A DNA stretch of 64,000 nt. Origin: Muriicola marianensis. GTDB lineage: Bacteria; Bacteroidota; Bacteroidia; Flavobacteriales; Flavobacteriaceae. The notes under the pieces are model-generated. The model did no database searches. It worked only from the letters and a program-made list of their open reading frames with translations, and was not told where the DNA came from. Where the stretch lies: assembly GCF_014638095.1 (NCBI RefSeq), contig NZ_BMFH01000001.1, forward strand, positions 2,303,227 through 2,367,226, read 5' to 3'. Made by a program: the position numbers and the translations under genes. Of this stretch, positions 57,880-62,097 are shown piece by piece (position 1 is the first letter of the stretch; each line of letters opens with the position of its first letter).

Positions 57880-60375
57880 TTAGCTTGGATCCAGAATCTT
57901 TTCTATACGTTGCGCAATGTCCTGGAGGTGATATTTGCTCATCCGGTCAGAAGTCCTGTTCACCGCGTTCAGAGCAGCAGACCTGATGGTGCTCAGCTCA
58001 GCTCTGGCGATAGATCTCAGGTCGGATTGACTCATGGTTACTGCCGTCGACTTTCTGTATCCTCCAAAGTCGGGCAGCTTTCTCTGGTCTTCGGCCTTCA
58101 TAATATACTCCAGTCGGTCTACATGAGCCTTTTGTAAGTTCCTTCGATACGTATCTATGGTCCTGCCGCTACGCAATTCAGACCAAAGCCCGCGCCTGAT
58201 ATCGGTCATCAGGTCGATGAGGGTATAAGCCTCGTTTCCGTGCAGGGCTTCGTATTCTACCAGCCGTTCCATTTTACCGAGGCTCAGCAGGTTGTTCAGG
58301 GTGCGCTCCTGCAGTCCTCTCAGCCTCTCTACAGAACCTGAATATTCGATCTTTGCAAACAGGTCTTTGTCGATAAGCCACTCCGGGGTCTCAAACAGCT
58401 GATCGTGCAGGAATGCCACGCAATTCTCCTGATGTTCTTTAGGTACATAGGTATATACAGGGCCTTCCTGCTCGTAGGTTTTATGGTTTTCATATACCCC
58501 ACCTATATTGTTGGAAACATGTCCCATATAGCGGTTAAACTGTGAGAGCACCTGGCCGTAAAGCGTTTCCAGGTCGTCATAGTTCTTCCCATCTTCTTTG
58601 GTCCATTCAACCAGGTTGGGAACGATGCGTTTCAGGTTCTCGATCCCGTATTCACTGGCAAGGATCGCATTGTCACCCAGGTCCTCGGTCTGAGAGCTTG
58701 GGTCGACCACGTCTCCGGCCTGCTGGTGTCCGAATCTGTAGAGGGGATCTCCGGCATGCTCCAGTATCCAGGAATCAAGGACCGGCTTCTCCTCCTCGGC
58801 TGATTTATCTAAGATGGGACGGTATCCCCATTTAATGGCGTATTTATCATAGATACCGATGTTCGGCATCAGGGCCACATCCCCGTCCTCGGGCTGGGCG
58901 ATGTAGTTAAAGCGGGCGTAATCCATAATGGAAGGAGCCGTGCCGTATTTTTTTGTAAAGGAGGGTGATCGAAGGGAATCTACAGGATAGGCCACGCTGC
59001 TACCCATATTGTGGGGCAGGCCCAGGGTATGTCCCACCTCGTGAGATGATACGAACCTGATCAGCCTTCCCATCACTTCATCCTTGAAGGCCACGCCCCG
59101 GGCATCCGGGTTGATGGCAGCTGTCTGTACAAAGAACCAGTTCCTCAACAGCGTCATCACATTGTGGTACCAGTTGATGTCCGATTCCAGGATCTCCCCG
59201 CTTCTCGGGTCACTCACGTGAGGTCCGTTTGCGTTGGGGATGGGTGAGGCCAGGTATCGAACTACCGAATAACGCACATCCTCGGGAGACCACTCAGGGT
59301 CTTCTTCAGGGGATGGCGGGTTTTTGGCGATGATCGCATTTTTAAAACCTGCCGCTTCAAAGGCTACCTGCCAGTCTTCGATCCCTTGTTTGATGTAAGG
59401 GACCCATTGTTCAGGGGTGGCGCGATCTACGTAGTATACGATAGGTTTCTTGGGTTCAACCAGTTCACCTCTCTTGAACTTTTCCATGTCCTCTTCTTTT
59501 ACTTCCAGTCTCCATCGGTCGAGGTAAGTAATAGTCTTGCTCTCTTGTGCGTCTAGACCGTAATCTACCTGGCCTCTGGCGAACCAGCCTACCCGTCTGT
59601 CGAAATACCTTCTTTTCATAGGTTCCTTTGGCAGCAGAATCATAGAGTTGTTGATCTCAATGGAAATAGAACCGAGGCTCTCATTGGATGGAGGATCCCC
59701 GGCGTTGTATGTTTTCACATGCCTGGCTTCGATGTTCAGGGGATAGCTTTTAATGGATTCGATAAAACTCCTGCTGTCATCCAGCCTTGTAGCTTTGTAG
59801 CGTTTTTTATAGCGGTCGGGCATACCCAGGGCCTGAACGTCCTTGGTAAAGAGATCGTCGACCTCTATCACTGTGGCCGGGTTAAGGGAATCCTTATTAA
59901 ATGCCTTGATATCGAAAGAATAGAGCACCGGTTCAAAATTGGAATTGACCACGGCCTCGTGTACGGGAAGACTGTCAGCGGCTACCACGTCGTGACTTAC
60001 CACACGGAGGAGCACCTTTTTGGGCTTCTTTTCCCACCTCAGAACCTGAGTATTGATTTTTCCACCCCCAAAACCAATGCCTGAAGCTGTTTTGGAAATC
60101 CTGCTAACCATAAGCATCTCCCGGTTAAAGAGGGAATCCGGAATTTCGTAAAAATGGGTGTCATCCACCACGTGGACCTTAAAAAGGCCCTCATCGGTGA
60201 CGGCCTCCTTGGTGATGACCTTGTCGTAGGGTTCAATATCACCTTTTTTACTTTTGGCTGCAGGTTTGGCAGCTTCTGTTTTTTTCTTCTTCTTAAAAAG
60301 TTGTGCATCGACCGATTGGGAGTATCCTGCAAAAAGTAGTATAACCAGGATCTTCGGAAGTAATTTTCTTATCAT
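57880..60375 (-). CDS. Large zinc-dependent metalloprotease (DUF5117/DUF4953-type)
   Basis: An 831-residue exported protein with a signal peptide (cleavage near QSVDAQ). After a basic spacer and a beta-rich N-terminal part (about 50-330) comes the catalytic site H445-E446-x-x-H449-x5-H455 (HEVGHTLGLPH), a metzincin motif, and a Met-turn SIMDYARFNY about 30 residues later. The C-terminal 300 residues are helical. The motif set and length match the large Bacteroidetes metalloproteases annotated as DUF5117/DUF4953. It lacks a T9SS sorting domain. Confidence 0.92.
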   Translation of the reverse strand: MIRKLLPKILVILLFAGYSQSVDAQLFKKKKKTEAAKPAAKSKKGDIEPYDKVITKEAVTDEGLFKVHVVDDTHFYEIPDSLFNREMLMVSRISKTASGIGFGGGKINTQVLRWEKKPKKVLLRVVSHDVVAADSLPVHEAVVNSNFEPVLYSFDIKAFNKDSLNPATVIEVDDLFTKDVQALGMPDRYKKRYKATRLDDSRSFIESIKSYPLNIEARHVKTYNAGDPPSNESLGSISIEINNSMILLPKEPMKRRYFDRRVGWFARGQVDYGLDAQESKTITYLDRWRLEVKEEDMEKFKRGELVEPKKPIVYYVDRATPEQWVPYIKQGIEDWQVAFEAAGFKNAIIAKNPPSPEEDPEWSPEDVRYSVVRYLASPIPNANGPHVSDPRSGEILESDINWYHNVMTLLRNWFFVQTAAINPDARGVAFKDEVMGRLIRFVSSHEVGHTLGLPHNMGSSVAYPVDSLRSPSFTKKYGTAPSIMDYARFNYIAQPEDGDVALMPNIGIYDKYAIKWGYRPILDKSAEEEKPVLDSWILEHAGDPLYRFGHQQAGDVVDPSSQTEDLGDNAILASEYGIENLKRIVPNLVEWTKEDGKNYDDLETLYGQVLSQFNRYMGHVSNNIGGVYENHKTYEQEGPVYTYVPKEHQENCVAFLHDQLFETPEWLIDKDLFAKIEYSGSVERLRGLQERTLNNLLSLGKMERLVEYEALHGNEAYTLIDLMTDIRRGLWSELRSGRTIDTYRRNLQKAHVDRLEYIMKAEDQRKLPDFGGYRKSTAVTMSQSDLRSIARAELSTIRSAALNAVNRTSDRMSKYHLQDIAQRIEKILDPS

Positions 60376-60644
60376 TTTCAGGTTCTTTTGATTTTGAAAT
60401 TTTTCAAAGAACTGAAAAAATCACACAGGGTTCTGTTAAGGATTTCTTAAGTAGGGCAATGCAGGTCTGGCCCTGGGGATACCTATATAACTTTCTATAA
60501 ATCATACTATTAAGATTAAAAAACACCTGAAAAATCTCTTCAGTTCTGAAGGTTTTCAAGTGTTAATTATCAGCCAACAATGTAACATCTTACGTTTTTT
60601 AAAGTCTTATAGACATAGAATTACAACCATCAATCAATCGAGAA

Positions 60645-61256
60645 ATGAACAAACTATTTATCCTATGTGGAATGGTTTTCCTGGGGATAACCTCCACGCC
60701 GCAATCACCCGAAACTATTGAATCAGAATCTTTTGAAACCCTGTCACCTGTGACACTCAAGGCTACCTGGAAACAAGATCAGGTCGGGCATCTGAACCTT
60801 AAATCAAAGGTCTGTGAGGAAACGGTTTATGCAGAGGATCTGGATGTTGCTTCAATCCTCTATGAGGAAGACGAAGAACCTATTGAACTGGGGTTTGACA
60901 CCCGGGAGTACCTGCCCGAGAATTTTAATCCTTATGTGACTTATGTCGACTTTAGTGCAATTCCTTATATCGAAGGGGAGGAAGAGGAAGTGTTCCCCGG
61001 AACATTGATGGCACTATTGCCTGAAGGATTCAATGCCTATGCAGCTCCTGTCGATGTTATGAATGTATCATATATCGAGGAAGAAGACCTGGACCTGGGC
61101 TTCGATACTAGTGAGTGGCTGCCCGAGGGGTTTGATCCTTATTTCCGCGACCTGGATCTGGACACCATTGTGTACATTGAAGAAGGTGAAGATCTCGACC
61201 TGGGATTTGATACCTCCCTCTACCTTCCGAAGGATTTTGATCCCTATAGTCTGTAA
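60645..61256 (+). CDS. Acidic secreted repeat protein A (four 35-residue units)
   Basis: A 203-residue protein with a signal peptide (MNKLFILCGMVFLG...) and four tandem units of 30-35 residues: 69-103, 104-138, 139-172 and 173-203. The consensus is (S/T)(I/V)xYIEEEDLDLGFDTxxxLPExFDPY with an acidic tail. Unit 2 lacks the LGFDT part. The protein is very acidic. The paralogue at 61610 has the same units, and the two lie in tandem with a terminator between them. No family is recognised; a calcium-binding or adhesive surface role is a guess only. Confidence 0.8.
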   Translation: MNKLFILCGMVFLGITSTPQSPETIESESFETLSPVTLKATWKQDQVGHLNLKSKVCEETVYAEDLDVASILYEEDEEPIELGFDTREYLPENFNPYVTYVDFSAIPYIEGEEEEVFPGTLMALLPEGFNAYAAPVDVMNVSYIEEEDLDLGFDTSEWLPEGFDPYFRDLDLDTIVYIEEGEDLDLGFDTSLYLPKDFDPYSL

Positions 61257-61311
61257 AGCATCTTTAAATGAAATAAAGATTTCATTGAGATATTTGAATT
61301 AGTTAGTTGAG

Positions 61312-61338
61312 AAGCCCCGCTGATGCCGGGGCTTTTTT
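61312..61338 (+). terminator. Terminator after repeat protein A gene
   Basis: Stem AAGCCCCG / CGGGGCTT with a 7-nt loop and a run of T. Confidence 0.88.
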
Positions 61339-61576
61339 ATGGTGAGGGTGAGTTTTTAAACAGAGAGGCATCATTTGCAGCTGATTAACAAATGTTTAAC
61401 TCACTGCATTGGTGGTAATAAAAGAGGGTCGCAACTGCCTTAAAATATCTAAATGAACCTCCTAATTATCAACTTGATAAGAAGAATCTATAGAAATTAC
61501 GAAAGTCATAATCATGACTGATATTGCAGATTGTTAATCATTTCTGAAGGGCAATAAAAACGGGGTTTTTGGGTTA
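61339..61576. other. Non-coding gap between the two repeat-protein genes
   Basis: About 240 bases between the terminator of gene A and the -7 box of gene B hold no credible frame. A perfect inverted repeat AGTCAT-AATC-ATGACT at 61504-61519, 58 bp upstream of the -7 box, could be an operator. Confidence 0.5.
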
Positions 61577-61584
61577 TATCTTTG
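61577..61584 (+). promoter_or_regulatory. -7 box of repeat protein B gene
   Basis: TATCTTTG, a perfect TAnnTTTG, 25 bp before the ATG. Confidence 0.7.
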
Positions 61585-61609
61585 CCTTAAAATGTAACCA
61601 GAAAATGTT

Positions 61610-62038
61610 ATGAATACACAAAATACATTACTTTATATCTTTCTTTTCTTCGGTTTTGGATTGAGTTCATCAGCCATGGAAAAGAATAACGAGATCAACC
61701 TGGAAGTGGATTCCATCACCTATATTGAAGAGGAGGACTCTGCATCTTTGGACTTTAATACGGAGGCTTTTTTACCGGAGGATTTCAACCCATACAGTGC
61801 GCCTGAAAACATTCTTCATGTAAGCTATATAGATGCTGAACAGGAAATCGATCTGGGGTTTGATACCGAGGAGTACCTGCCGGCCGGATTTAATCCTCAC
61901 CGCTTTTTTTTCGATATCCATTCCATTGAATATATCGAAGATGAAGAGCTGTTCGATATCGATCTAGCGATTATAATCCAGGTACCGACATCAGGAATTA
62001 TGATCGCCTATGACAGGGAGCCCGGCAAAGGCTTCTAA
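61610..62038 (+). CDS. Acidic secreted repeat protein B (paralogue of A)
   Basis: A 142-residue protein with a hydrophobic leader (YIFLFFGFGLSSSAM) and two full units plus a degenerate third. Unit 1 has ITYIEEEDSASLDFNT then LPEDFNPY. Unit 2 has VSYIDAEQEIDLGFDT then LPAGFNPH. Unit 3 starts IEYIEDEELFDIDL and runs into a different C-terminus. It has its own promoter and terminator. Function unknown, as for protein A. Confidence 0.8.
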   Translation: MNTQNTLLYIFLFFGFGLSSSAMEKNNEINLEVDSITYIEEEDSASLDFNTEAFLPEDFNPYSAPENILHVSYIDAEQEIDLGFDTEEYLPAGFNPHRFFFDIHSIEYIEDEELFDIDLAIIIQVPTSGIMIAYDREPGKGF

Positions 62039-62061: not shown

Positions 62062-62097
62062 ATCCCCGGAAGCACCTTTCTTCCGGGGATTTTTTTT
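62062..62097 (+). terminator. Terminator after repeat protein B gene
   Basis: An 11-bp perfect stem ATCCCCGGAAG / CTTCCGGGGAT with a 7-nt loop, then a T-run that touches the stop codon of the convergent SLC13 gene. Confidence 0.9.

Follow-up and report, generated by a model that had tools for sequence, protein, structure and literature searches.

The window analysed here, the whole stretch of 64,000 nucleotides of the Muriicola marianensis genome, carries two tandem genes, A and B, with the following features:

60581..60609, + strand: putative ECF-sigma-like promoter of gene A (-35 TGTAAC, 17-nt spacer, -10 GTCTTA)
60610..60644, + strand: 5' leader of gene A, A-rich and conserved, with A at -1, -2 and -3 (97-100%)
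60645..61256, + strand: gene A, 203 aa, acidic repeat protein, probably exported
60645..60704, + strand: apparent signal peptide of A (MNKLFILCGMVFLGITSTPQ), assigned by visual inspection and from its conservation across 57 relatives
60837..60935, + strand: A unit 1, aa 65-97
60942..61040, + strand: A unit 2, aa 100-132, degenerate (LGFDT gone, LPEGFNAY retained)
61044..61142, + strand: A unit 3, aa 134-166
61149..61247, + strand: A unit 4, aa 169-201
61309..61338, + strand: intrinsic terminator of gene A, hairpin then T run (-18.0 kcal/mol, z -3.24)
61577..61584, + strand: putative housekeeping-type -7 element TATCTTTG of gene B (TAnnTTTG type)
61610..62038, + strand: gene B, 142 aa, acidic repeat protein, probably exported, paralogue of A
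61697..61795, + strand: B unit 1, aa 30-62
61802..61900, + strand: B unit 2, aa 65-97
61913..62035, + strand: B degenerate third unit and tail, beginning at aa 102
62062..62090, + strand: intrinsic terminator of gene B, hairpin then T run (z -5.8)

The initial annotation of this DNA had described two tandem paralogues, each with an export signal and each followed by a terminator, and it holds on all of these points: the ORF coordinates are exact, A and B match each other with 42% identity across 90 aa (tblastn E 1.2e-16), and a good hairpin with a T run lies behind both genes, the terminator pattern scan having picked up that of gene B only and folding having confirmed that of gene A. A and B are the only two copies of their family detected in the M. 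marianensis genome. A scan of the window for RNA families returned one tRNA and nothing else.

Both proteins carry apparent Sec signals and are probably exported; in the A orthologues the signal region has the sequence MNKLLLIYGSVLLSSTAIA^NDQQ, with an A-x-A site, as judged by eye and from conservation. Inspection by eye of the A and B orthologues found no lipobox Cys at the end of the hydrophobic region of the signal, the Cys of MNKLLxIYGC sitting midway along the hydrophobic stretch and not at its end. Neither was a T9SS C-terminal sorting domain found, with no Pfam match, and in most relatives the protein terminates at its last unit or a few residues beyond. Because there is no lipobox and no extra C-terminal domain, a periplasmic or released location would be the most likely one for both proteins. 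Mature A is strongly acidic (D+E 25%, pI about 4), with a net charge beyond residue 20 of about -40, the median of its relatives being -46.

The repeat unit and its family

The repeats reported in the initial annotation, four in A and two to three in B, are far above chance. The ungapped internal self-similarity of A is 124, against 27.8 for shuffles (sd 5.1, max 52; about 19 sd above), and that of B is 89, against 24.6 (sd 4.4, max 44; about 15 sd above), with four units in A, the second degenerate, and two in B plus a degenerate third. The third unit of B shows the same erosion in M. jejuensis (L026) and is intact in another Muriicola genome (L004). Five units is the usual number for A among relatives (61 of 79; four in 15), and two units for B (33 of 38). 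A profile of 455 units, spaced as in A and B by 34-35 residues, resolves a core of 16 residues, LGF[DN]T-x2-YLPE[GDN]F[DN]PY, preceded by a stretch rich in E and D and by a hydrophobic segment, [IV]x[YF][IL]E. Conservation peaks in the core at L, G, F, D/N, T, Y, L, P, E, F, D/N, P and Y, most of which reach 3.0-4.3 bits.

Overall dN/dS is 0.11, with 0.07 for the core against 0.15 for the remainder, and such strong purifying selection on the core indicates that the units are functional. Moreover, same-index units are 0.54-0.74 alike between species, whereas units within one protein are 0.44 alike. The units thus retain their position identity across species, which rules out recent repeat expansion or gene conversion and, together with the low dN/dS, indicates that they are old and individually maintained.

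That the repeat is undescribed, as first suspected, agrees with every library searched. A and B both fall below every family cut-off in curated Pfam and NCBIfam; the 57 relatives of A gave scattered weak family matches only, the commonest in 4 of the 57 and none to the first member; a PDB sequence search returned no relative of either protein; and PHROGs yielded a single weak sub-repeat match (phrog_10520, E 3e-4, function unknown). These searches rule out a known repeat family, and a search of open PMC text with a few terms likewise returned no description of this one. Cargo of a mobile element or phage was also ruled out, the plasmid and phage collections being without a match.

The family is present in 105 of 397 Flavobacteriaceae genomes and in 68 of 237 genera (E 1e-6), and genome draws from the phylum and class gave no match beyond Flavobacteriaceae. 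A contig scan confirmed 209 relatives; the best 80 of these 209, which were retained, are nearly all from Flavobacteriaceae (Allomuricauda/Flagellimonas, Eudoraea, Muriicola, Croceitalea and others), one being labelled merely Bacteroidia bacterium.

The initial annotation had also suggested a repeating structural or metal-binding unit, and this the models do not support. In two AlphaFold2 runs (57 and 45 homologues, the alignments shallow and repetitive) mean pLDDT was 60.8 and 38.1 and pTM 0.17 and 0.14, with short turns at the core motif only and no confident repeat fold or packing. Low confidence from a shallow repetitive alignment is a weak sign of disorder; in view of the composition as well, a disordered chain that makes local turns at the core would be the simplest reading. 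The lack of a confident fold largely agrees with the disorder that had been named in advance as the finding to speak against a structural unit, whereas selection on the core shows the units to be functional.

A calcium-binding structural repeat, in which acidic clusters and aromatic and Pro residues fold round a divalent ion into an elongated rod, nevertheless has several points in its favour: the acidic stretch and the DT and DP residues are kept in every unit, the spacing is fixed, and most relatives belong to genera of marine, calcium-rich habitats. Folding upon binding of calcium or of a partner may be compatible with the AlphaFold2 result, which is an apo prediction. However, that prediction is without a repeat fold or packing, the acidic positions accept D, E or N and changes in length where the core does not, and the PDB offers no relative; we consider such a repeat unlikely. 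Quite unlikely, too, is that A and B are released to bind polysaccharide or neighbouring cells as adhesive or biofilm components. They are exported, repetitive and lineage-specific, with more than one family copy in some genomes, but they are small (about 100-240 aa) and lack an anchor, a known adhesin module and the C-terminal domain of T9SS cargo, and a conserved single locus with a dN/dS of 0.11 is unlike fast-evolving adhesins.

Promoters, leader and candidate regulon

The strongest signal at the locus, overlooked in the initial annotation, is the ECF-type promoter of gene A. Aligned upstream regions share a conserved block ahead of A, TGTAACA...AGTCTTATA, within which 76 of 78 A genes have TGTAAC-N17-GTCTTA exactly, the spacer being 17 in every case and the other two genes having variants; these 76 loci are related and hence not independent, but the flanking intergenic sequence is far less conserved. 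The distance from the element to the start codon is 34-37 nt in nearly all loci and 46 nt in one. Within the window the element occurs once only, before A; there are no further exact sites in the 1.21 Mb of collected loci and 0 ahead of the 891 other ORFs, and a reversed-pattern control gave 0. The B genes have TAnnTTTG upstream in 34 of 38 and the ECF-type element in 0 of 38, TAnnTTTG being described in PMC9723704 as the Bacteroidetes housekeeping -7 box. Gene A thus has the AAC in the -35, the GTC in the -10 and the fixed spacing by which ECF-type promoters are recognised, and gene B does not.

The same division extends to further genera, in which the sampled A-type genes have this element, intact or with one base of its -35 changed (CGTAACA/AGTAACA...GTCTTA), and their B partners TAnnTTTG. 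A third group of the family, from other genera, has neither promoter type and shares a common upstream block, GCGTTATATAnACTCAT (L117, L127, L129, L130, L134 and L135). Regulation of gene A by a putative ECF-type promoter has good sequence support, and the split between A and B suggests a stress-induced and a basal form of one protein. The promoter by itself is no proof that A acts in stress; ECF factors also have T9SS genes, among others, under their control. Since the ECF reading is drawn from sequence alone, the element might be the site of a repressor or activator and not a promoter, but this seems very unlikely: the layout is bipartite, AAC and GTC, with a spacer invariant at 17 nt; its distance to the start is nearly constant; TAnnTTTG is absent upstream of A, as expected for an ECF promoter; and a like layout stands at an ECF gene's own start.

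That ECF gene (L172, G000:C1 about 920 kb) has the promoter TGTAACC-N17-CGTCTTA, that is, a spacer of 18. It lies in an ECF sigma / anti-sigma-like pair, with a divergent TGTAACC-N17-CGTCATA before a DUF6249 membrane-protein gene, and the arrangement is repeated in L173, L174 and L178, the relatives in which this region was inspected. As the promoters of the ECF gene have a spacer of 18, not 17, we have not adopted this factor as the sigma of gene A, which a second, separate ECF factor may serve.

Other genes may share the control of A. In eight genomes exact sites lie 15-51 nt ahead of genes for DUF456 (four genomes), DUF4870 (three) and MacB-like permease (four) proteins; by the same count, A-type genes have them in five genomes and ECF genes in two. 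In the DUF456 membrane-protein gene the ECF-type element is 15-16 nt upstream in all four (G000:C1:1381848 (L137), L149, L150 and L154). In the M. marianensis genome, sites with one mismatch precede LemA, Band_7 and DUF4870 genes, but their genome-wide number is not above control, so that the case for a wider regulon rests on the position of the sites before genes and on their recurrence across genomes.

The transcript of A may also be under constraint. Of the A genes, 97% have an A at -3 of the leader, a base that promotes translation in Flavobacterium johnsoniae (PMC6847099). In codons 1-20 of A (60645-60704) pooled dS is 0.22-0.26, against about 1.0 past codon 120, and synonymous positions there are about fourfold more conserved than in the remainder, whereas three neighbouring genes show a low dS (0.31-0.37) in codons 1-10 only and 0.70-1.22 in codons 11-20. 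This low early dS suggests that the mRNA itself is constrained, perhaps so as to be translated strongly. A conserved RNA structure at the start of A, sought by minimum free energy, found no support, the values being no lower than those of mononucleotide shuffles (20 relatives, mean z +0.75).

Neighbourhood and proposed role

The genes flanking the A-B pair are shared among Muriicola, Eudoraea and Flagellimonas/Allomuricauda; in the Muriicola and Flagellimonas loci viewed, cluster 3 or the Met-zincin protease lies to the left and a DASS symporter to the right. Certain loci are without a detected B. In Allomuricauda/Flagellimonas (L030, L034, L035, L043 and others) the contig often ends about 15-30 kb from the locus, which might point to a repeated element nearby, an rRNA operon for instance. 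In M. marianensis gene A adjoins the divergent Met-zincin protease gene (DUF4953/DUF5117/DUF5118, 57880-60375), whose cluster is found in 69 of 81 loci. That this protease cuts between the units of a polyprotein precursor, freeing repeated peptides, would accord with this proximity and with a repeated motif on variable linkers, but is highly improbable, as Eudoraea (L036) and Muriicola Z0-33 (L074) have an intact A-B pair in a slot without the protease, no conserved cleavage site is seen between units, and the units are not homogenised.

We favour, at roughly even odds for the account as a whole, an explanation in which one family of exported repeat proteins, so far of Flavobacteriaceae, has a stress-inducible member, A, and a basal one, B. 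An ECF sigma factor would transcribe gene A from TGTAAC-N17-GTCTTA, within an envelope-stress regulon also holding the genes for a MacB-type transporter and small membrane proteins, and the housekeeping sigma factor would transcribe gene B. Sec would export both proteins, most likely to the periplasm or beyond the cell, as polyanionic, multivalent and probably disordered chains. Each unit would dock through a short motif (LGFDTxxYLPEGFDPY) borne on an acidic tether that supplies charge and reach, so that one chain may bind several copies of one partner, or it may protect the envelope against molecules that are cationic or misfolded. More tentatively, the pair could represent a new class of envelope-stress effector, in which an ECF-induced disordered, multivalent polyanion docks by its aromatic and proline motifs on one conserved partner in the envelope and a constitutive paralogue gives basal protection.

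The family occurs in about a quarter of the sampled genomes of an environmentally important group and is without an entry in the curated libraries searched. The promoter split offers a concrete handle, as A would be a ready reporter for a little-known ECF envelope-stress response, and the pair allows the role of a probably disordered acidic repeat in the Gram-negative envelope to be addressed.

Comparison with known systems

Tandem acidic repeats in exported proteins recall RTX and other calcium-binding acidic repeats. RTX repeats are glycine-rich nonapeptides of proteins exported by type I systems, whereas A and B have a 34-35-residue unit, an apparent Sec signal and no GGxGxD, the GGxGxDxUx nonapeptide being absent from the unit profile. 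Spy and CpxP are, as A is proposed to be, small, exported, stress-inducible periplasmic proteins; they are helical dimers under two-component control, and A and B bear no apparent resemblance to them by PDB sequence search.

The regulation has closer counterparts. In Flavobacterium psychrophilum an ECF-type motif, that of SM6, has been mapped by TSS, and its GTC/CGT-type -10 box is like that of gene A; as described in the relevant passages of that report, its targets include an ECF/anti-sigma pair, Band 7 and ABC-transporter (ABC ATPase) genes and, in contrast to what we find, T9SS genes, the same passages making no mention of the acidic repeat family; the comparison is one of -10 box and targets (PMC9723704). 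In Bacteroidales, the EcfO-like regulons, with dual membrane-spanning anti-sigma factors, are likewise presented as an ECF answer to envelope damage, include exported proteins without known function and protect against toxins; they differ in anti-sigma architecture and in exported targets (e.g. NigD-like), and no acidic repeat protein figures in the passages describing them (PMC9308784). What is new in A and B, as far as the libraries and papers searched show, is the sequence family of a putative ECF-linked exported stress protein, under a type of regulation already known in the phylum.
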